From Phycisphaerae bacterium (GTDB taxonomy: Bacteria; Planctomycetota; Phycisphaerae; UBA1845; UTPLA1): 64,000 nucleotides of DNA. The stretch lies in contig JAHBXN010000010.1 of the NCBI GenBank assembly GCA_019636475.1, forward strand, positions 1-64,000, given 5' to 3'. Shown in pieces: positions 38,400 to 53,924 of the stretch. Each line of letters begins with the position of its first letter. Positions within the stretch are counted from its first letter, which is position 1. The notes under the pieces are model-generated. The model saw only the letters and a program-made list of their open reading frames with translations, ran no database searches and had not been told where the DNA came from. Position numbers and translations under genes: made by a program.

Positions 38400-38437
38400 A
38401 GCCCGCGATTGACGCCGACCTCGTCGCGGGCTAATAT
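38400..38437 (+). promoter_or_regulatory. ars promoter with overlapping inverted-repeat operator
   Basis: TTGACG at 38409-38414 and TAATAT at 38432-38437 are separated by exactly 17 bases, a near-consensus sigma-70 promoter. AGCCCGCGA (38400-38408) and TCGCGGGCT (38424-38432) form a perfect 9-bp inverted repeat spanning the -35 and spacer. ArsR-type repressors bind such sites at their own promoters. Transcription would begin near 38444, at or next to the arsR ATG at 38445, so the message may be leaderless. Confidence 0.7.
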
Positions 38438-38444
38438 ATGCACA

Positions 38445-38831
38445 ATGACGCAAGTAAGCAAACGTCGGTGTCCAGCCACCCCCAAGCAAGCCGCAGCGTG
38501 CTGCAGGCCAGTGGACGAACTGCTGGACACGGCGATGTTCAAGGCGTTTTCCGACCCCACCCGCGTTTCGCTTCTCGCGTGCATCGCCAAGTGCGGGCGG
38601 GGCTGCTCCGTGGGTGAGATGGCAGAGTGCTGCACCGTGGACTTCTCCGTGGTGTCCCGGCACCTCGCATTGCTGGCTCGCTCCGGCGTGCTGGAAGCCA
38701 AGAAGGAAGGGCGGACGGTCTTCTACCGCGTCCGCTACGCCGAACTGTGCCGGTCCCTCCGCTCGCTCGCAGATGCGTTGGAGGAGTGCTGCCCGGAAAA
38801 GGGAGGGTCGTGCAATGGCAAGTGCCGCTAA
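38445..38831 (+). CDS. arsR: ArsR-family arsenic-responsive repressor
   Basis: 128 residues from the ATG at 38445. A winged-helix region is clear: MFKAFSDPTRVSLLACIAKC, then VDFSVVSRHLALLARSGVLE as the recognition helix, and GRTVFYRV as the wing. Many cysteines (CCRP, CIAKCGRGC, AECC, EECCPEKGGSC) could bind As(III). In the family, arsenite binding releases the operator. The palindrome at 38400 is its probable site. First gene of the ars operon; it overlaps arsC by 17 bases. Confidence 0.88.
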   Translation: MTQVSKRRCPATPKQAAACCRPVDELLDTAMFKAFSDPTRVSLLACIAKCGRGCSVGEMAECCTVDFSVVSRHLALLARSGVLEAKKEGRTVFYRVRYAELCRSLRSLADALEECCPEKGGSCNGKCR

Positions 38832-39297
38832 GCGCCTCCGCGTGCTGTTCCTGTGTACCGGCAACTCGTGCCGAAGTCAGATGGCGGAAGGGTGGGCCCG
38901 GTCGCTCTGTTCGGATTCCATCGAACCGTACTCCGCCGGGATCGATCCGCACGGGATAAACCGGTTAGCGGTGCGAGCAATGGCCGAAGTCGGGATCGAC
39001 CTCTCGGCCCACACCAGCAAGAGACCCGAGGAACTCGGCGTCGAATTCGATTACGTAATCACCGTGTGCGATTCGGCTCACGAGGCCTGCCCGCTATTCC
39101 CGGCCCGCACGCGGGTTATCCATATGGGCTTCGATGATCCACCGCGGTTGGCCGAGCGTGCAAAAAACGATGATGAGGCCATGCCGCACTATCGGCGCGT
39201 GCGCGACGAAATACGCCGATTTGTCGAATCACTTCCCGATGTGCTCACCGCGAAGTACGCGGGAGCAGCACACGAGAGAGGAGACCAGTTGCGATGA
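38815..39297 (+). CDS. arsC: arsenate reductase, thioredoxin-type (low-MW phosphatase fold)
   Basis: 160 residues from the ATG at 38815; the frame stays open further upstream inside arsR, but the N-terminus RVLFLCTGNSCRSQMAEGW with the CX5R loop must be close to the start. FDDPP in the C-terminal half supplies the Asp general acid. It reduces arsenate to arsenite, using the catalytic Cys and a thiol relay. It overlaps arsM by ATGA at 39294. Confidence 0.9.
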   Translation: MASAAKRLRVLFLCTGNSCRSQMAEGWARSLCSDSIEPYSAGIDPHGINRLAVRAMAEVGIDLSAHTSKRPEELGVEFDYVITVCDSAHEACPLFPARTRVIHMGFDDPPRLAERAKNDDEAMPHYRRVRDEIRRFVESLPDVLTAKYAGAAHERGDQLR

Positions 39298-40178
39298 CCG
39301 ATTCAAACAAGCCGTGTTGTTCCGACTCGTGTTGCGGAGGAGCGTCAGTGCTCGCCGCCGACAACGCCGAAGCTGTGCGCGACCAGGTTCGGGACGGCTA
39401 TTCCAAAATCGCGCAGGGCAGATCCGGAGGAGGTTGTTGCGGTCCGGCGACATTTACGCCCGACGAGTTGGCACAAGCCATCGGCTATTCGCAGCAGGAT
39501 CTTGCGGTGACGCCCGAGGCGGCCAACATGGGGCTTTCCTGCGGAAACCCTACGGCGCTCGCATCGCTTCGACCAGGCGAAGTCGTGCTCGACCTTGGCG
39601 CTGGCGGCGGATTCGATTGCTTCGTCGCCGGCCCGAAGGTCGGCGCGTCCGGCCGTGTGATCGGCGTGGACATGACGCCGGACATGCTCGCAAAGGCCCG
39701 CCGCAATGTGGCTCTCTATCGGGATCGGTCCGGCTTGAACAATGTTGAATTCCGATTGGGCGAGATTGAGAATCTGCCCGTCGCCGACGGAAGCGTCGAC
39801 GTGGTTATCAGCAACTGCGTCCTGAATCTCTCACCTAACAAGGCACGGGTCTGGCAGGAAATCGCGCGAGTCCTCAAGCCCGGTGGACGTGTGGCGGTTT
39901 CCGACCTTGCGTTGCTTCAGCCACTGCCCGATGCGATTCGTCGCGACGTCGAGGCACTCATTGGCTGCATCGCAGGAGCGATTCTTATTGAGGAGACACG
40001 CCAGCAGATGCAATCCGCCGGTTTGACGCGGATTGTTCTCACACCGAAGCCACAATACATGGAGTCGATGTCGTCATGGCAGGACCCGCTGTACGAACGC
40101 ATTATTCGCCAACTTCCGGCAGCGACAAAGCCGGGCGACTTCATCACAAGCCTGGACATCGCGGCGGTTAAGCCTTGA
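39294..40178 (+). CDS. arsM: arsenite S-adenosylmethionine methyltransferase
   Basis: 294 residues. A Cys-rich N-terminus (PCCSDSCCGG, GGGCCG) precedes a class I methyltransferase with VVLDLGAGGGFDCF and GVDMTPDMLAKAR. Cysteines in NMGLSCGNP, VISNCVLNLS and ALIGCIAG sit at the places of the three conserved ArsM cysteines. The enzyme makes methylated arsenicals from arsenite. It starts in an ATGA overlap with arsC and ends 10 bases before the efflux gene. Confidence 0.93.
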   Translation: MTDSNKPCCSDSCCGGASVLAADNAEAVRDQVRDGYSKIAQGRSGGGCCGPATFTPDELAQAIGYSQQDLAVTPEAANMGLSCGNPTALASLRPGEVVLDLGAGGGFDCFVAGPKVGASGRVIGVDMTPDMLAKARRNVALYRDRSGLNNVEFRLGEIENLPVADGSVDVVISNCVLNLSPNKARVWQEIARVLKPGGRVAVSDLALLQPLPDAIRRDVEALIGCIAGAILIEETRQQMQSAGLTRIVLTPKPQYMESMSSWQDPLYERIIRQLPAATKPGDFITSLDIAAVKP

Positions 40179-40187
40179 GGTCCTTCC

Positions 40188-41342
40188 ATGAGCAATCCAA
40201 CTGATGTGCGCCGACTGAACCTATTTGAGCGATATCTGACGATTTGGGTCGCAGTCTGCATGGTTGTGGGCATCGCCATCGGCAAACTCTTGCCCGGCCT
40301 AACCGATGCGCTACGCCGCCTGCAATTCGGCGGCGGCAGCCAGATCAATGTCCCGATCGCCGTGCTCATCTGGCTGATGATTTACCCAATGATGCTGAAG
40401 GTCGATTTCGCATCGGTCCTGGGTGTTGGCAAGCGGCCGAAGGGATTACTCATCACGTGCTTCATCAACTGGATGGTGAAACCGTTCAGCATGGCGCTTA
40501 TCGGCTATTTGTTCTTCAAGCATTTCTTCCTTCCTTGGATCGGAGCCGAACTCGCTGACCAGTACATCGCCGGAGTGATCATTCTCGCGGCCGCACCCTG
40601 CACCGCGATGGTCTTTGTCTGGAGCTATTTGACGCGTGGCGACGCGGCATACACACTCGTCCAGGTGTCCATGAACGACCTGCTCATGCTTGTGCTATTC
40701 GCGCCGATCGTGACGTTTCTCGTGAACGGCGCATCCACGTTGACGGTTCCATTCATGGTCCTGCTGTACGCTGTCATCTGCTTCATCGTGATTCCGCTCG
40801 TCGCCGGGGCCATGACGCGCCGCACGCTGATTCGGCATCGCGGCGTCGAGTGGTTTGAGAAGTCGTTCCTGCCGCGGTTCCACCCCGTCGCGGTCTTGGC
40901 GCTGCTCGCGACGCTGGTGCTGATTTTCGCCTTTCAAGCCGACAACATTACGACGCGATTCTTCCACGTCTTATTGATCGCGGTTCCGATTCTCATTCAG
41001 GTGTATTTCAATTCGTCGCTCGCCTACGCCCTGATGAAGCTGTTCCGCGTTCCGCACAGTGTCGCCGCCCCGGGCGCCTTGATCGGCGCGAGCAACTTTT
41101 TCGAGCTGGCGGTTGCAACGGCCATCGCGCTGTACGGCCCGGAGTCCGGCGCAGCGTTGGCGACAGTCGTGGGCGTGCTCGTCGAGGTTCCCGTGATGCT
41201 CAGCGTGTGCGCCTTCTGCAACCGGACGCGCGGATGGTTCGACGCAGCGTCGGCGGCGGAATGTCCGGTGCCCGCCCCAGGATGTTGCGCGAATTGGGTT
41301 GCATTTACTGGCCACGCAACGGAAGCTCAGATAGGATCGTGA
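40188..41342 (+). CDS. acr3: arsenite efflux permease, ACR3 family
   Basis: 384 residues and about ten hydrophobic helices. Family marks include MIYPMMLKVDF, the AAPCTAMVFVWSYLTRGD motif with the key Cys, and SMNDLLML. ACR3 exports As(OH)3 by proton antiport. Its C-terminal tail after FCNRTRGWF carries an unusual CPVPAPGCC. Last gene of the ars operon, which thus combines reduction, methylation and efflux. Confidence 0.93.
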   Translation: MSNPTDVRRLNLFERYLTIWVAVCMVVGIAIGKLLPGLTDALRRLQFGGGSQINVPIAVLIWLMIYPMMLKVDFASVLGVGKRPKGLLITCFINWMVKPFSMALIGYLFFKHFFLPWIGAELADQYIAGVIILAAAPCTAMVFVWSYLTRGDAAYTLVQVSMNDLLMLVLFAPIVTFLVNGASTLTVPFMVLLYAVICFIVIPLVAGAMTRRTLIRHRGVEWFEKSFLPRFHPVAVLALLATLVLIFAFQADNITTRFFHVLLIAVPILIQVYFNSSLAYALMKLFRVPHSVAAPGALIGASNFFELAVATAIALYGPESGAALATVVGVLVEVPVMLSVCAFCNRTRGWFDAASAAECPVPAPGCCANWVAFTGHATEAQIGS

Positions 41343-41826: not shown

Positions 41827-42405
41827 ACGCCGCCCCGTCATGAACCTAGGCAATCGCGCCGCTTCCCACCTTGATCTTGAGCCCCGCAAGTGCCGAGCAG
41901 CAATCTCGGGTGTCTATCGTCAACGCCGGCGGCCCGGCGAGCGATTCAACCTTTTTCGAGTGCTTGCGGACTCGTGTCTTACGACGGCGTCTGCACTCGC
42001 TTTGTTCCCGGATTCGGTGGCGCCCACGGACGACGCTTCCGCCCTGCTATTCGCGGGAGTCCTTTTGCGACCGATTGGATGGAGTGGGCCCTGCATGATT
42101 TATCACTCGCAATCCAAATCAAGTCAACCGGTCTCCTGAATTCAATTCGTGCCAGGACCTCGCCTCGCATAAACTTAAGATATTATTATATAATGAATTA
42201 TAACAATAAACGCCACGCGGCGGACTGAAGGTCTTTGCTATCGGCTCTGTTGATGAACGAATTTTCGGTCAATTCTGTTGCCGCAGCGGATTCATTGCGC
42301 TACTCTTATTGCGACGATTGACGTCGGAAGAATCCGGCGAGTCGTTGGAGTTGATCGGCAGTTTTCTGGTTCGCCGATCGCGGAATCCTGACTGGACGCT
42401 TCAAC
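41827..42405. other. intergenic region with an AT-rich island
   Basis: About 580 bases upstream of the lipid operon without a supported gene. Bases 42171-42211 are almost pure A/T (TTAAGATATTATTATATAAT and on), striking in this GC-rich DNA. A TATAAT is present at 42189 but no matching -35 was found. Confidence 0.5.
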
Positions 42406-43686
42406 ATGCGTATTGCGATTATCGGTTCGGGCATATCGGGATTGATCGTCGCTCGCCTGTTGAACGACGAGCACGAGATCACGGTTTTCGAGGCCGACAA
42501 CCGAGTCGGCGGCCACACTCATACCGTTCGGGTGGCCGAAGGAAACCGCGGGCTTGATGTTGACACCGGGTTCATTGTTTTCAATGAGGACGCCTATCCC
42601 AACTTCACCCGCCTGCTCTCGATACTCGGTGTCCAGAGTCAACCCAGCGATATGAGTTTCAGCGTTTCATGCCGGAAAACCGGGCTAGAATGGGCCGGCA
42701 CGAACCTGAACACCCTGTTCGCCCAACGACGCAATCTGCTTCGACCGCGATTTCATCGCATGTTGCGGGACGTAATGCGCTTCAACCGAACCGCGTCAGC
42801 CGCTGCCCGCAATGGCCACGCCGAATCGTCGCTACTGGACTATCTCAGGTCAGCCGATTATTCGCCGGAGTTTCTAGAACATTACCTAATCCCAATGGGG
42901 GCGGCGGTGTGGTCCGCTGAACCGACGGAATTCGGTCGAATCCCGCTGAGGTTTTTCGTTCAGTTCTTTGAGAACCACGGCATGATGTCGGGTTTTCAAC
43001 GGCCGACCTGGCGAGTGATTCGCGGCGGCTCGATTCGGTATGTTGAGCGTCTGATCGCCCCGTTCGAAGACCGGATCCGAACGAACTGCCCCGTCTTGGG
43101 CCTGCGTCGCCGGCCGGAGCATGTCGAATTGACGACGCCGACGGGTGTCGAGAAGTTTGATCAGGTGGTCATCGCATCGCACAGCGATCAGGCCCTGCGG
43201 ATGCTGAGGGATGCATCTCCCGCGGAGCGCGAGATACTGGGTGCGATTCGCTTTCAACGCAACGAAACCGTCCTGCATACCGACGCATGCGTCATGCCCA
43301 ATCTGCGACGGGTCTGGTCGAGTTGGAATTATCGCATTCCAAGTGGCGGGCGAGATGCTGTCGACGTCTCCTACCATATGAACCGGCTGCAAGGACTCGA
43401 CGCACAGTGCGACTATCTTGTCAGTCTGAATTCGACGCAGGACATCGACCCGCGACGGGTGATCAAGTCGATCGAATATCACCATCCCATCTTCGACGGC
43501 AGAAGTGTTTCGGCGCAGCGGCGCCACAGCGAGATCAGCGGGACGCGTCGAACGCACTACTGCGGCGCCTATTGGGGCTACGGTTTTCACGAAGACGGCG
43601 TTCGAAGTGGCCTGACAGTTGCAAGTTGGTTTGGCAAAAGCCTTGATTCATTGAAGGGGCAGCACGCCACATGGGTCGCAGCGTGA
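42406..43686 (+). CDS. FAD-dependent oxidoreductase (flavin amine oxidase-like) of a lipid cluster
   Basis: 426 residues. GSGISG at 7-12 and the acidic end of strand 2 ([15 protein letters not shown]) form the FAD-binding Rossmann motif. [13 protein letters not shown] and [14 protein letters not shown] are typical of the flavoproteins that accompany DUF1365 and cyclopropane synthase genes. They are suspected to desaturate or oxidise fatty acyl chains in membrane lipids. First gene of a six-gene operon; it overlaps the next frame by 16 bases. Confidence 0.85.
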
Positions 43687-44660
43687 GAAGCGCGGTGAGA
43701 GCGTGCGGCCGGTTCCGCAGCGATGATGCAGGCCTATTCCTAGACGAATGTCGGGCACGGGGAAGAGCGGTGTTGGCCAGTTGCATCTATGAAGGTCGTG
43801 TTCATCATCAGCGGCACGCGCCGGTGCGGCACACATTTCACTACAAACTATTCATGATGTACCTCGACCTGTCGGAACTTCCGACCTTGTTTCGCCGTCG
43901 CTGGCTGTGGTCGATCGAGGGCCGGGCATTGGCCCGATTCCGGCGGTCCGATCACCTGAAGGGCGTGGCGGGCGGTGCGGAGACGCCGTTGGACGAAGCG
44001 GCCCGGGTGCTCGTGAACGAGCGTCTGGGCTTTCGGCCGAGCGGTCCGATTCGACTGCTTACTCACCTGGAGTATTTTCGATATCGCATCAATCCGGTGA
44101 GTTTCTATTTTTGCTTTGACCCGGCGGGTGAGCAATTGGAGGCGATCATCGCCGAGATCAACAATACGCCCTGGGGCGAGCAGCATTGCTATGTTCTGGA
44201 CGCCCGAGCGGCGGCGGACAAGCCCGGCATTCTGCGATTTCGTTTCGGCAAGGAATTTCACATTTCGCCTTTCATGGGGATGCAGTTGGACTACGACTGG
44301 CAATTTCGCGTTGCGGGCCGGACCCTGAACATTCGAATGTTAAACCGCGAAAATGGGCATCGCATTTTCGACGCGAACCTGGCGATGGATCGACGCGAAA
44401 TCTCGACTGCATCGCTCGCCTCGGTTCTGGCGAGGCATCCGCTGATGACGTTTAAGGTCGTGGCGGGGATCTACTGGCAGGCGTTTCGCCTCTGGCTGAG
44501 GCGATGTCCGTTCCACCCTCACCCCGGGAGGAACACCGTTTCGCCTGGTGACGCGACTTCGACATTACTGAGCGAGGGTCGTCCTGATTGCGCGACCGCT
44601 CGGAGCGAATCCGCGCGCATAAAATCCACTGGGGCGATTCTGGGTTCGACATCATGCTGA
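43671..44660 (+). CDS. DUF1365 family protein
   Basis: 329 residues as drawn. The family core begins at [20 protein letters not shown] and includes [16 protein letters not shown] and [14 protein letters not shown]. The N-terminal 33 residues are extra: a GTG at 43770, with GGGGAAGAG upstream, is a credible alternative start. The C-terminal 40 residues after FHPHPGRN are also beyond the usual family end and overlap the next gene. DUF1365 proteins nearly always travel with the flavoprotein and CFA synthase, and their reaction is not established. Confidence 0.85.
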
Positions 44661-45955
44661 CAAGAAGCCAAGCGACAATTGGAGAGATCAAGCGGGAGAC
44701 GCAAGGCCCGGCGTTTCTGGATCGTCTCGCGCGAACGATCGTGACCACCGCATTCTCCCGAATTCAGCGCGGTCGTCTTACGGTGGCCACCGATGGCGAA
44801 ATCGAGAGCTTCGGCTCGACGACCGGCGACTGCCAACTCGATGTGACGCTGCGAATTCGAGACTCGCGTGCGTGGCGTGCGATCGCATTTGGCGGAACGG
44901 TCGGCGCGGGCGAATCCTACGGGCGCGGATGGTGGTCGGCGAGCGATCTAATCGAACTCATTCGGGTCATCATCGACAACGAAGCTGCCATGATGGCGCT
45001 GGACTCAGGCTGGGGCCGGATCATGTCGCCGATCAACCGGCTTCGTCATTGGCTGTCGCGAAACACGCGTGCGGGCAGCCGTCGCAACATCGCGGCGCAC
45101 TACGATATCGGCAACGATTTCTACCGGCTGTGGCTCGACGAAACGATGGCGTACTCCTCGGGCGTATTCGAGCGACCAGAGAGTACGCTCTCCGAAGCCT
45201 CGGTCGCGAAGTTTGATCGGATCTGCCGAAAGCTCCGGCTCTCACCGGCCGACCGGGTCATCGAGATCGGCACCGGTTGGGGCGGATTCGCAATCCATGC
45301 GGCAAGAGAGTACGGCTGCCACGTGACGACCAGCACGATCTCCAGGGCGCAGTATCAGTCGGCATGCGAGCGCGTGACAGCCGCCGGATTGACCGATCGG
45401 GTGACAGTACTCAGCAAAGACTATCGCGATCTCGAGGGCGTTTTCGACAAGCTTGTATCGATCGAGATGATTGAAGCCATCGGCTGGCAGCAATTTGACA
45501 CCTTCTTCGGCAAGTGTGCGTCACTGCTCGCGCCGCAGGGCGAAGCGTGCATTCAAGCGATCGTGATCGGAGACCGCCACTACGAAGCAGCAAAGCGCGA
45601 CGTTGACTTCATCAAACGCCATATCTTTCCCGGCAGTTGCATTCCGTCGATCGGCGCCTTGGCGCGCTCAATCGCCACGTCCAGCGATCTGACGATGAGC
45701 CACCTCGAACAATTCGGAACCCACTACGCACGCACGCTGCGGTGCTGGAGAGACCGGTTAAACGCCCACTCGGACGAGGCCCGGCGGCTGGGACTGTCTG
45801 AAGAGTTTCTGCGTCTGTGGGAGTTTTACCTTTGTTACTGCGAAGGCGGTTTCGCGGAGCGCCGGCTCGATGTGGTGCAGATGCTTCTTAAGAAACCGCG
45901 TAATACGACGCCCGCGCTGCTGCCGGCGCTCGAGCAGGACGCCTGGCGGCCATGA
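44654..45955 (+). CDS. cyclopropane-fatty-acyl-phospholipid synthase family protein (1)
   Basis: 433 residues from the ATG at 44654 (an upstream TTG is less likely). The N-terminal domain ([17 protein letters not shown]) and [23 protein letters not shown] are hallmarks of CFA synthases; [16 protein letters not shown] binds [12 protein letters not shown] supplies the catalytic Glu. The enzyme transfers a methyl(ene) group from SAM to an unsaturated lipid acyl chain. It overlaps DUF1365 by 7 bases. Confidence 0.92.
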
Positions 45956-45989
45956 ACCGCGAGCGTTCCACACGGCGATCAAGGCGACC

Positions 45990-46559
45990 ATGCAACGAAT
46001 GATCATAAATATCCTGTTGTTTCAGGCGACGTGGTTTGCCGCAATCTTTGGGGCGGCGCAGGGGCACGCATGGCCTGGCCCCTTGTTCGCGACGATCACT
46101 CTGGTCATACACCTTCTGATGAGGACACATAGGGCGGTCGAAGCGCGACTCGTGCTGAGCTGCGCATTGATCGGGTTTGTAGTGGATTGTCTCTGGGCAC
46201 GCCTGGGTATCTTGAGCTTCGCGGCAGAGATGCCGCGTTCGTGGCCCTGCCCGCTGTGGATGCTTTCAATCTGGATCGGATTTGCCACGACGCTCAACGG
46301 CGGCCTTGCTCGACTTCAACGCAGGTTTCTTCTGGCCGCCGTGATCGGCGGAGTCAGCGGCCCGATCGCCTATTCAGCGGCCGAGTCGATTGGCGCGATT
46401 TTGATTCATGGCTCGCGCGTGCCGGCGCTTTGTCTCATCGGCGGAGGCTATGCAGTCCTGCTGCCGATCATGCTTCGCCTCGCATCGGCCTGCGTAAAGC
46501 GACGCGGGGCCGTGGGAAACGCCTGCGTTATCGCATCGACGGCGGAGGCTCGAGCCTGA
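45990..46559 (+). CDS. DUF2878-like membrane protein
   Basis: 189 residues from the ATG at 45990 (AAGG upstream); the open frame reaches back into the CFA gene but without membrane protein character. Five to six hydrophobic helices, with NILLFQATWFAAIFGAAQG at the start and WPCPLWMLSIWIGFATTLN in the middle, the usual DUF2878 marks. Its position between CFA and DUF1295 genes supports the assignment. Function unknown, probably a lipid-linked membrane protein. Confidence 0.75.
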   Translation: MQRMIINILLFQATWFAAIFGAAQGHAWPGPLFATITLVIHLLMRTHRAVEARLVLSCALIGFVVDCLWARLGILSFAAEMPRSWPCPLWMLSIWIGFATTLNGGLARLQRRFLLAAVIGGVSGPIAYSAAESIGAILIHGSRVPALCLIGGGYAVLLPIMLRLASACVKRRGAVGNACVIASTAEARA

Positions 46560-46560
46560 A

Positions 46561-47349
46561 ATGGACGCGATACGGCTATTAATCTTTGCGGCCGCGATCA
46601 TGAGCCTCATCATGCTCATGCTCTGGGCCTTGCAGCAGCGAACGCAGAACGCCGGGCCGGTCGATCTTGCATGGTCGGCAGGCATCGGGCTGGTGACGCT
46701 GTTTTACGCTGCATTCTCGCCTGGATTCGCCGGACGACGCGCGCTGGTGGCTGCCATGACCGGAATCTGGTCCATGCGGCTCAGTATCCATCTTTGGCGA
46801 CGCATCCGCCGAGAGCCGGAGGATGGTCGCTATCAAGCGATTCGCGAGGAAAAAGGCGTGCGTGCGGCATCCTGGTTCTTCTGGTTCTATCAGTTTCAGG
46901 CGGTGCTGGTGATTCTCTTTTCAGTGCCTCCGCTCATTGCGATGCGCGCCGCGCCGGCACACCTGACGGCATTGGACTTTCTCGGAGCGCTGATCGCAGT
47001 CATTGCGATCGTCGGAGAGTCCGTCGCCGATCTGCAACTGAGCGCGTTTCGCGCTCGGCCGGAAAATCGCAATCGCACCTGTCGTGAAGGGCTCTGGCGA
47101 TACTCGCGGCATCCGAACTATTTTTTCGAGTGGATCCACTGGTTCGCCTATATCGCCGTCGGCGCAACCGCATCCTTCGGCTGGCTGACTCTGGCGGGTC
47201 CGATCCTGATGCTGTTTTTCCTGTTCAAGATCACCGGAATTCCACCGACTGAAGCTCGCGCGCTGGCATCGCGAGGAAACGACTACCGTGAGTATCAAAG
47301 GACGACCAGCGTTTTCTTCCCGTGGATTCCGAAGGAGACATCTCCATGA
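46561..47349 (+). CDS. DUF1295 (steroid 5-alpha-reductase-like) membrane protein
   Basis: 262 residues, multi-pass. [12 protein letters not shown] near the start and [20 protein letters not shown] near the end are the family hallmarks; the second resembles the C-terminal motif of steroid reductases and isoprenylcysteine methyltransferases. A role in reducing or modifying a fatty acyl or isoprenoid chain is inferred. It begins 1 base after the DUF2878 stop and ends in an ATGA overlap. Confidence 0.88.
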
Positions 47350-48512
47350 ACGCAGACGCCCCGATCTCGACCCAATCCCGCGTCTCGATGCGCTCGACGC
47401 GCGAAGCCGAGCGTGACCCGTCGATCGCTTCCGTGCGACCCGCGGCCCGAGAGCGGGCAGCCGGCGACCTGATGTCGCGACTGCTCGATCTGGCGGAACG
47501 AGGCTGGATTCCGGAATCGCTTATTCGCGCCGGCATTCGCAGGCTGCTCTCGGAGGGCCTGAGAGAGCGAGCGGATGGCGGACCGGACGCCATGCAGGAC
47601 CGGCTCTCGGAACTGCTGGACTCCCTGCGCACGGGACCGATCGCGATCGAGACCCGCGCCGCGAACGAGCAGCACTACGAGCTTCCTCCGGAATTCTTCG
47701 GGATATGCCTTGGCAGGCATCGCAAGTACAGCGGTTGCTATTGGCCTCGAGGAATCAGCACACTCGATGAGGCCGAGGAGGCATCACTCCGAGTCACCTG
47801 CGACCACGCCGACCTTCACGACGGCCAGCGGATTCTGGAACTGGGCTGTGGCTGGGGTTCGCTTTCGCTCTGGATGGCCGCGCGATACCCGAATTCCGAA
47901 CTGGTGGCTGTTTCGAATTCCGCACCGCAGCGATCTTTCATTCAATCGCAGTGCGAGCGTCGCGGCATCACGAATCTTCTGGTCATCACGGCAGACATGA
48001 ACGTCTTTCAGCCGCAGGGGCAGTTTGATCGCGTCGTCTCCGTCGAGATGTTCGAGCATATGCGAAACCACGAACGCTTGATGTCGCGCATCTCCGATTG
48101 GCTCAGGCCGGGGGGGAAACTGTTCGTCCATATCTTCGCCCACGGCCGAACGGCATACCTCTTTGAAGATCGCGGTCCGTCCGATTGGATGTCGCGCCAT
48201 TTCTTTACCGGCGGAATCATGCCCTCGGACGACATGCTGCTGCACTTTCAGCGGGACCTGAAACTGGAGCGGCGGTGGCGGCAGGACGGCACTCACTATG
48301 CCCGCACCGCCGAAGCCTGGCTCCAAAATCTGGACGCGGGCGAAGCTGAAGCGTTTCGCCTCCTGGAGGGAGTGTACGGCAGAGAGCATGCCCGCCGATG
48401 GCTGATGCGCTGGCGGATTTTCTACATGGCCTGTGCCGAGCTGTTCGGCTATCGAGGCGGCACGGAATGGTGGGTCTCGCACTATCGCTTCGTGAAACCC
48501 ACGTCCGATTGA
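47346..48512 (+). CDS. cyclopropane-fatty-acyl-phospholipid synthase-like methyltransferase (2)
   Basis: 388 residues from the ATG at 47346 in an ATGA overlap with the DUF1295 gene. It differs from the first CFA gene: [20 protein letters not shown] replaces the AHYD motif, then [16 protein letters not shown], and the catalytic region [13 protein letters not shown]. This subtype is related to the fatty acid methylases acting on vaccenate in Rhodobacter-type furan fatty acid synthesis and to plant N-methyltransferases. Having two divergent enzymes in one operon suggests sequential methylations. Confidence 0.87.
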
Positions 48513-51386: not shown

Positions 51387-53924
51387 ATGAAGCCAACAGC
51401 ACCATCCGCCGTTGCGCCCTCTTCGAGCCAATCAGATGATTTGGTGCAGTCACGGCGCGGCTCGCGCTCACATACACAGTTCAAACCGACGGACAGCGTC
51501 GGCGGAGCCATTCAACCTGCCGGTCGTGGGATGCAGGTGCACGAGAACACCGAACGCCTCCGCGCGATTGTTGAGACTGCCGTCGACGGCATCATCACGA
51601 TCGACTCCGAGGGTGTGGTCGAGACCATGAACCCCGCAGCCGAACGCATGTTCGGATTCACCGGTGACGAATTGATCGGACGCAACATCACGGAGCTGAT
51701 GCCCGAGCCCTACCGGAGCAAACACGATTCGTATCTGCAGCGTTACCTGACGACGGGTGAGCGACGCATCATCGGCATCGGGCGCGAAGTGCTCGGCCTT
51801 CGGCGCGATGGCAGCACTTTTCCGATGGAGCTTGCTGTCAGCGAGATGCACTTGAATGGCCGTCGGATGTTTACAGGTATCGTTCGTGATATTACGGAGC
51901 GCCGCGCCGCGGAAGAGAAGCTCCGGCGACTATCCGCCCTACTGGACGACTCGAATGACGCCATCAAGTTGCTCGATCTGAGTGGAAACATCACAGCCTG
52001 GAACTCCGGGGCCGAACGGCTCTATGGATATACCGAGTCAGTCGCGCTGAAGATGAATATCCGCGAGCTCCTGCCGCATGACCGCAGTTCGGAAATCTCG
52101 GAGGCGATCGAGCGTTTGAAGCGTGGAGAGCGGATTCCTCCGTTCGAGACAAACCGCGTCGCGGCGAACGGCCACGTGCTCGACATTCAATGCACGCTGA
52201 CATTGCTGAAAGGCCGAGGAGGCCAACCAGACACCATTGTCGTCACGGACCGTAACATTACCGAGCGAAAACAACACGAGGCAGCACTGCGCGGAAGCGA
52301 AGCCAAGACGCGTGCGATCGTCGAGGCAGCCGTTGATGCGATCATCACCATTGACGCCAGCGGCCTGATCGAATCGGCGAATCGAGCGGCCGAACGACTC
52401 TTCGGGTACGACGCGGCAGATCTGATCGGCCACAACGTGAGCATGCTGATGCCTTCGCCATATCGGGAGGAACACGACTGCTATATCCGGCGATATCTTC
52501 GCACCGGGGTCAAAAAGATCATCGGTCTGGGACGGGAAGTGTACGGACGCCGGCGGAACGGGACAACATTTCCGATGGAACTTGCAATCAGCGAACTGCG
52601 TGTCGATGATCGCATCATGTTCACGGGAATCGTGCGCGACATTTCCGAACGAAAGCAGTTTGAACAGGAACTCACCGAACGGACGGCCGTCGTCGCGGAA
52701 ACCAATCGCATCCTTCAGGAGGCGAATTCAAGAGCTGAAGAGGCGACCGCGGCCAAGAGCGCATTTCTCGCCAATATGAGCCACGAGATCCGAACGCCGA
52801 TGACCGCGATTCTCGGATTTGCTGAGCGGCTGCAGGACGGCGAACTCAACGAAGCGGAAAGAAATTCGGCCATAGAGACGATTCGACGCAACGGCGAGCA
52901 CCTCCTGCAGATCATCAACGACATCCTGGATATCTCCAAGATCGAAGCGGGCAAGATGAAAGTCGAGCATATTCGATGCTCCCCGATCGAGATCGTCCAA
53001 GATGTTATCTCGCTGATGAAAGTCCGTGCGGATGCCAAGGGTCTCGCACTCGAAGTCGAATGCGCCGGCGCCGTGCCTGAGACCATTGAAAGCGATCCAA
53101 CGCGCCTGAGGCAGATCCTGGTCAACCTGGTCGGCAATGCCATTAAGTTCACGCAGAAGGGTTCGATCCGAATCGAATGCAGACTCCTGGAAAACGACGA
53201 AGGACCCAAGATGCAGTTCATGGTTGCGGACACGGGAATCGGCATGTCGCCTCTTGAGATTGAGCGGATATTCATGCCGTTTTCGCAGGCCGACCCCTCG
53301 ACCACGCGGAAGTTCGGCGGTACGGGACTGGGACTTATGGTCAGCCACCGTTTCGCGCAAATGCTTGGCGGCACGATCACTGTCGATAGCAAACCGGAAG
53401 AAGGCAGCCGATTCTGCGTTGTTGTCTCCGCCGGGCGGCTTGATGGCGTCAGGATGGCACACGACTGGCATCGAACGAATTTATCGGCCGAGAATGTGCC
53501 CACCCGGCCCGATGCGGATTCCGAGCCGCTGGACTGCCATATCCTCCTGGCAGAGGACGGCATGGACAACCAACGATTGATTGAGCACATTCTGACCAGG
53601 TCGGGCGCGACGGTTCAGGTCGTCGAAAACGGCCGAATGGCGATTGACGCCGTTATGGCGACACTGAAGGCATCCGGTCGCTCCGCCGCGGAGCGGAAAT
53701 TCGACCTCATTCTGCTTGACATGCAGATGCCCGAGATGGATGGCTACGAGGCCGCCATCAACTTGCGCAAGATCGGCTTTGTTAATCCGATCATCGCGCT
53801 GACGGCGCATGCGATGTCCGGCGACCGCGAGAAGTGCCTTGCCGCGGGCTGCGACGAATATGCCACCAAGCCGATCAATCGAAAAGCGCTGCTGAACCTG
53901 ATACGCTCGCGAATCAGAAAGTAG
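51387..53924 (+). CDS. hybrid sensor histidine kinase with three PAS domains, two FixL-like
   Basis: 845 residues, no membrane segment, so cytoplasmic. PAS1 (about 55-175) has RSKHDSYLQRY...IIGIGREVLG: His113, Arg119 and Arg133 match the spacing of the FixL proximal heme His and its two Arg. PAS2 (about 183-295) lacks these. PAS3 (about 305-425) has EEHDCYIRRY...IIGLGREVYG with His363, Arg369 and Arg383. The kinase core follows: ANMSHEIRTPMTAILGF (His466), the N box LVNLVGNAIKFT, and GGTGLGL. A receiver with LLDMQMPEMDG closes the chain. It may sense oxygen or another ligand. No response-regulator gene is adjacent. Confidence 0.9.
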   Translation: MKPTAPSAVAPSSSQSDDLVQSRRGSRSHTQFKPTDSVGGAIQPAGRGMQVHENTERLRAIVETAVDGIITIDSEGVVETMNPAAERMFGFTGDELIGRNITELMPEPYRSKHDSYLQRYLTTGERRIIGIGREVLGLRRDGSTFPMELAVSEMHLNGRRMFTGIVRDITERRAAEEKLRRLSALLDDSNDAIKLLDLSGNITAWNSGAERLYGYTESVALKMNIRELLPHDRSSEISEAIERLKRGERIPPFETNRVAANGHVLDIQCTLTLLKGRGGQPDTIVVTDRNITERKQHEAALRGSEAKTRAIVEAAVDAIITIDASGLIESANRAAERLFGYDAADLIGHNVSMLMPSPYREEHDCYIRRYLRTGVKKIIGLGREVYGRRRNGTTFPMELAISELRVDDRIMFTGIVRDISERKQFEQELTERTAVVAETNRILQEANSRAEEATAAKSAFLANMSHEIRTPMTAILGFAERLQDGELNEAERNSAIETIRRNGEHLLQIINDILDISKIEAGKMKVEHIRCSPIEIVQDVISLMKVRADAKGLALEVECAGAVPETIESDPTRLRQILVNLVGNAIKFTQKGSIRIECRLLENDEGPKMQFMVADTGIGMSPLEIERIFMPFSQADPSTTRKFGGTGLGLMVSHRFAQMLGGTITVDSKPEEGSRFCVVVSAGRLDGVRMAHDWHRTNLSAENVPTRPDADSEPLDCHILLAEDGMDNQRLIEHILTRSGATVQVVENGRMAIDAVMATLKASGRSAAERKFDLILLDMQMPEMDGYEAAINLRKIGFVNPIIALTAHAMSGDREKCLAAGCDEYATKPINRKALLNLIRSRIRK

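Follow-up and report, generated by a model that had tools for sequence, protein, structure and literature searches.

Dimethylated furan fatty acids are lipids thought to be reactive with singlet oxygen. The pathway for furan fatty acids was established by genetics in Rhodobacter sphaeroides and Rhodopseudomonas palustris. It starts with the methylation of cis-vaccenate by UfaM, whose product is desaturated by UfaD; UfaO (a DUF1365 protein) forms the furan ring with an O2-derived oxygen, and FufM (RPA0924) puts a second methyl on the ring (PMC7380195). As UfaM, UfaD and UfaO were sufficient and FufM was active alone in vitro (PMC7380195), two further families encoded in the operon described here, DUF2878 and DUF1295, are dispensable for the published pathway. 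A deletion of RPA0923 is listed in that study, its main-text mentions being in the strain and plasmid tables, without a phenotype (PMC7380195). In R. sphaeroides, singlet oxygen destroys furan fatty acids, and the response to singlet oxygen needs them (PMC6852236). The singlet-oxygen response of Chlamydomonas includes two CFA-like genes along with a DUF1365 gene and a DUF1295 gene (PMC4067076). In Pseudomonas, ufaM clusters are controlled by LitR-type MerR proteins (PMC9758184), while in the blue-light responses of Vibrio a MerR-like protein acts beside ChrR (PMC5241685).

Gene content and orthology to the R. palustris enzymes

The window, a 64,000-nucleotide stretch of DNA from a Phycisphaerae bacterium of the Planctomycetota, lies on contig C10 of a genome of 4.4 Mb (18 contigs, 95% complete). 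PSCyt1, tried as a marker of that phylum, is absent from this genome, while 5 of 20 relatives and 0 of 14 control genomes have it, which leaves the phylum assignment plausible. Profile searches of the window found six open frames on the same (+) strand at 42406-48512, encoding in order Amino_oxidase, DUF1365, CMAS, DUF2878, DUF1295 and a second CMAS-like protein (Table 1), in agreement with the six tightly packed genes of an initial annotation. With spacings that hinge on the chosen start codons, those of genes 2, 3 and 6 being uncertain, genes 1 and 2 overlap by 16 nt if gene 2 starts at its first ATG, genes 2 and 3 overlap by 7 nt (gene 3 start ATG 44654), 34 nt separate genes 3 and 4 (gene 4 start ATG 45990), 1 nt separates genes 4 and 5, and genes 5 and 6 overlap by 4 nt as ATGA (gene 6 start ATG 47346). 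Since homology in gene 2 begins near residue 39, its translation may really begin further downstream (e.g. GTG 43770); alternative starts for gene 6 are GTG 47322 and ATG 47472. The only domain matches of gene 1 are Amino_oxidase, NAD_binding_8 and DAO. Genes 3 and 6, 29% identical to each other, are the only CMAS genes above the Pfam cut-off in this genome, where DUF2878 is single-copy. Five hydrophobic segments were found in gene 4 by a crude hydropathy scan.

Table 1. Features of the operon, in window coordinates
Feature	Coordinates	Strand	Predicted role	Basis and remarks
Gene 1, ufaD	42406..43686	+	Predicted FAD-dependent desaturase of methylated acyl chain	PF01593 Amino_oxidase, E 6e-23
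Gene 2, ufaO	43671..44660	+	Predicted furan-ring-forming oxygenase	DUF1365 PF07103, E 4e-82; start may be later
Gene 3, ufaM	44654..45955	+	Predicted SAM-dependent acyl C-methyltransferase	CMAS PF02353, E 4e-82
Gene 4, DUF2878	45990..46559	+	Small membrane protein, mostly after ufaM	PF11086, E 7e-36
Gene 5, DUF1295	46561..47349	+	Membrane protein, steroid-5-alpha-reductase-like, partner of fufM	PF06966, E 3e-69; weaker PF02544
Gene 6, fufM	47346..48512	+	Predicted SAM-dependent furan-ring C-methyltransferase	CMAS-like, E 2e-39
Probable promoter region	42151..42405	+		Position and base composition only

Downstream of the operon lies a methyltransferase/glycosyltransferase pair on the opposite strand. 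Just upstream, at 38409-41342, is an arsenic cassette with an ArsR/SmtB regulator, an arsenate-reductase-like frame, an arsenite methyltransferase (PRK11873) and an ACR3 efflux protein, the latter two both over cut-off.

Rhodopseudomonas reference genomes were located with the LH2 alpha peptide of R. palustris (an exact match to PDB chain 7zcu_A) and were searched with gene 6 and DUF1365. The R. palustris sequences compared come from strain XCP and from the DSM 123 deposit, function having been shown in CGA009. XCP encodes three CMAS-like genes. The one next to its single DUF1365 gene is ufaM, which shares 28% identity with gene 6. Another, 31% identical to gene 6, was taken as the RPA3082 type. 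The remaining gene is 50% identical to gene 6, 27% identical to XCP UfaM, and directly 3' of a DUF1295 gene. By elimination, low identity to UfaM and position, it was assigned as fufM and its DUF1295 neighbour as RPA0923; RPA0924 is likewise only 26% identical to R. sphaeroides UfaM (PMC7380195). Against the R. palustris proteins, gene 1 is 45% identical to UfaD, gene 2 a modest 34% to UfaO (the sole DUF1365 of that genome), gene 3 38% to UfaM, gene 6 49-50% to FufM, and gene 5 38% to a DUF1295 protein that, like gene 5, directly precedes fufM. Based on these identities and the tree below, orthologues of UfaM, UfaD, UfaO and FufM are all present in the operon, which bears out the earlier suggestion of an operon for lipid modification of the furan-fatty-acid type. 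The gene set, its orthology and the active-site signatures are direct observations.

Active-site residues, phylogeny and predicted product

The initial annotation described both methyltransferases as CFA-type. If one or both were ordinary cyclopropane synthases, the operon would yield cyclopropane chains and the redox genes beside them would be unrelated; this reading is favoured by the CMAS PF02353 matches of both genes and by annotation pipelines, which label genes of this sort CFA synthase. The proton whose removal closes the ring in CFA synthase is taken up by a bicarbonate bound by Glu239, His266 and Tyr317 (PMC11387697). Gene 3 keeps Glu239 and Tyr317, but Gln replaces the bicarbonate ligand His266 and Ala replaces His240. 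A240/Q266 is found in all 42 UfaM rows of the alignment (gene 3, 36 homologues from the phylum, 3 proteobacterial and 2 Rhodopseudomonas sequences), as against His240/His266 in all four CFA-type rows (three solved CFA synthases and the RPA3082-type gene). MmaA4, the maker of hydroxymycolates, also has Gln266, a residue that would suit catalysis in which the cation gives up a proton of the chain rather than closing a ring. A maximum-likelihood tree places gene 3 with Rhodopseudomonas UfaM in the UfaM clade (99/95) and gene 6 with Rhodopseudomonas FufM in the FufM clade (97/92), both outside the CFA branch, which holds the RPA3082-type gene; neither gene reaches an NCBIfam CFA equivalog cut-off. 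The residues and the tree identify the pair as UfaM and FufM, cyclopropane synthase identity was rejected for both, and a cyclopropane product is very unlikely. Gene 6 could also be read as a coclaurine-type N-methyltransferase with a small amine or a lipid headgroup as its substrate, leaving a monomethyl furan lipid and an unrelated methylation, as coclaurine N-methyltransferase is its top match among solved structures (E 6e-69). That match agrees with FufM itself being 37.9% identical to the plant protein AT4G33110, LIME1 (Omata et al., PMC10940516). The signature of gene 6, E239/H240/H266/F268/Y317, is found in 46 of 46 FufM rows, whereas plant N-methyltransferases have E at 266 and F or P at 317 and form only a sister group to the FufM clade. 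Given these differences, the closeness of gene 6 to R. palustris FufM and the shared DUF1295 neighbour, the N-methyltransferase assignment is very unlikely.

A further alternative is a saturated chain with a methyl branch, as in 10-methylstearate; gene 3 would then methylate the chain, DUF1295 or gene 1 would reduce the remaining double bond and DUF1365 would do something else. The UfaM product is indeed a methyl-branched monoene, and DUF1295, which resembles C=C reductases, is encoded between the two methyltransferases. However, orthologues of UfaO and UfaD are adjacent and conserved, and across rearranged gene orders DUF1295 tracks fufM, not ufaM. In 10-methylstearate synthesis (TmsAB/BfaAB), the reductase partner is of another FAD family; gene 1 is an Amino_oxidase protein. 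Such a product is highly improbable.

Dimethylated furan fatty acid is thus the preferred product, and the operon very probably encodes the complete pathway to it from a cis-monoenoic phospholipid chain. Since all four R. palustris enzymes have orthologues here, a product of the same class is predicted, with possible differences confined to chain length or ring position; the suggestion that the missing sigma/ChrR pair points to a different product is not supported. Under this scenario, UfaM would methylate the double bond and shift it, UfaD would make a methylated conjugated diene, UfaO would insert an O2-derived oxygen and close the furan ring, and FufM would add the second ring methyl. DUF2878 and DUF1295 would be membrane accessory proteins travelling with ufaM and fufM, respectively. 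We infer these activities and the product from homology, along with a possible part for the lipid in quenching singlet oxygen or serving as its target in the membrane; by analogy, its role here may be protective or signalling.

The monoene is probably supplied by an unlinked fatty acid desaturase, two of which are encoded in this genome. One of them (L237 6893-7873, G000:C16) resembles, by eye, desaturases of the furan clusters of relatives and is a candidate monoene source. A desaturase gene lies within or beside 18 of 40 clusters from the phylum; among the loci read, it is directly upstream of ufaD in L049, L050, L056 and L057, and likewise on an Acinetobacter plasmid. As the substrate chain sets the ring position, a delta-9 monoene instead of vaccenate would shift the ring, relative to 9D5, by two carbons towards the carboxyl end.

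The role of DUF1295 is more speculative. The family has an invariant RHPNY motif and a weaker match to Steroid_dh (PF02544). Given these features, its tie to fufM rather than the ufa genes and its induction in Chlamydomonas (PMC4067076), DUF1295 might be a steroid-5-alpha-reductase-like enzyme that uses NAD(P)H to reduce the electrophilic ene-dione formed when a dimethyl furan lipid reacts with singlet oxygen, a reading we regard as unlikely. If true, the operon would both make the lipid and dispose of its spent form. DUF1295 could equally be a SAM-dependent ICMT-like enzyme, as a PDB search with it gave a weak ICMT match only (4a2n); a PDB search with DUF1365 gave no significant relatives.

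Distribution and control

A fufM-type gene, taken as a homologue of gene 6 with E below 1e-40, is present in 99 of the 392 genomes sampled from the phylum (46-61% identical). Forty loci were fetched, chosen through gene 6 and, for nine of them, through DUF2878, and their flanks were searched with named queries. All five core genes (UfaD, UfaO, UfaM, DUF1295 and FufM) are together in 32 of them, and ten have the exact six-gene order of the window, all from its own family, order or class. The gene set is therefore non-random. The gene orders across loci point to a pair of sub-modules: one is ufaD-ufaO-ufaM, in which ufaM is often followed by DUF2878, and the other joins DUF1295 and fufM. In L060, L061, L067, L077 and L080, DUF1295 sits after fufM and is of a divergent second type, scoring 107-129 bits against the DUF1295 of the window (most others about 220-300). 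A locus from the same order (L052) has UfaD-UfaO-UfaM-DUF2878 without DUF1295 or FufM in a 20-kb stretch and may make the monomethyl furan only. Related sets are also found on proteobacterial plasmids of Cupriavidus, where the set is split over several transcripts, Acinetobacter, and Burkholderia and Rhizobium, where ECF and anti-sigma genes are present. Given this distribution across the phylum and proteobacterial plasmids, the operon is ordinary for the phylum and belongs to a known pathway.

That no sigma/ChrR pair is linked to the operon, as the initial annotation had noted, holds: no sigma or anti-sigma gene flanks it. ChrR is absent from this genome altogether, at 95% completeness, with no Cupin_7 and no TIGR02451 match, and at the curated TIGR02451 cut-off it was found in 0 of the 392 phylum genomes. 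The ECF11 motif TGATC-N17-19-CGTA, thought worth seeking upstream of 42406, was not found there. Neither a sigma-70 consensus nor TGTACA/TGTATA sites were found upstream of the operon; one relative has one such site. The most AT-rich 60-mer of the window in an AT scan, at 42151-42215, is just upstream of the operon, and the repeats there are two short two-copy direct families, with no inverted pairs.

Control of the operon is not by ChrR. As no ChrR above the curated cut-off occurs in the phylum genomes sampled, the Acinetobacter plasmid cluster lacks the pair and the Pseudomonas clusters are under LitR-type MerR proteins, the lack of a linked ECF/ChrR pair is not special to the window. Three clusters from the same order or family as the window have an ECF gene at most 1.2 kb away. 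In one locus of the same family (L054, 2357-3509), an ECF sigma gene is followed by a Cupin_7 (ChrR-type) protein, 4-5 kb from the furan cluster; the phylum may thus not be entirely devoid of ChrR-like pairs. A MerR-like protein with B12-binding similarity (LitR/CarH-like) is linked to 7 of the 40 phylum clusters. This genome encodes one B12-binding MerR homologue (G000:C7:40784-41554; 34% identity, E 5e-45), unlinked to the operon, and we tentatively regard it as the best candidate regulator. A large PAS hybrid histidine kinase is encoded at 51387-53924, its best NCBIfam match, below cut-off, being the oxygen sensor FixL; no evidence tying it to control of the operon was found.

Comparison with described systems

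Dimethyl furan fatty acids are predicted here in a phylum for which a full-text literature search found no paper pairing it with furan fatty acids. The pathway itself is already known; here it is encoded in one operon in a genome without ChrR, to which the pathway is evidently not bound. The conserved two-module gene set also puts two families without an assigned function, DUF1295 and DUF2878, in a defined setting, and bacteria bearing the operon may be a source of food-web furan fatty acids.

In R. palustris, RPA2569-2571 (ufaM, ufaO and ufaD) and RPA0923-0924 (DUF1295 and fufM) encode the same four enzymes and the same DUF1295-fufM pair as the window, in two loci rather than a single operon. 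DUF2878, part of the operon here, does not appear next to the R. palustris genes examined, and control by ChrR is not available in this genome. R. sphaeroides ufaM (RSP2144) and RSP1087-1091 have UfaM, UfaD and UfaO in common with the window; they belong to the ECF11 sigma-E/ChrR regulon and give the monomethyl furan form (PMC7380195), whereas the window adds FufM and has neither ChrR nor the ECF11 motif. The Pseudomonas ufaM cluster under LitR (PplR/PmlR) has no ChrR requirement and uses a MerR-type light regulator (PMC9758184), but in the window no MerR gene is linked, the homologue being on contig C7. The Acinetobacter piscicola plasmid (NZ_CP048660, L007) has UfaD-UfaO-UfaM-DUF1295-FufM in the order of the window with no ECF/ChrR annotated alongside; unlike in the window, a desaturase is linked to the cluster, as is a sensor kinase, and DUF2878 is missing from it.
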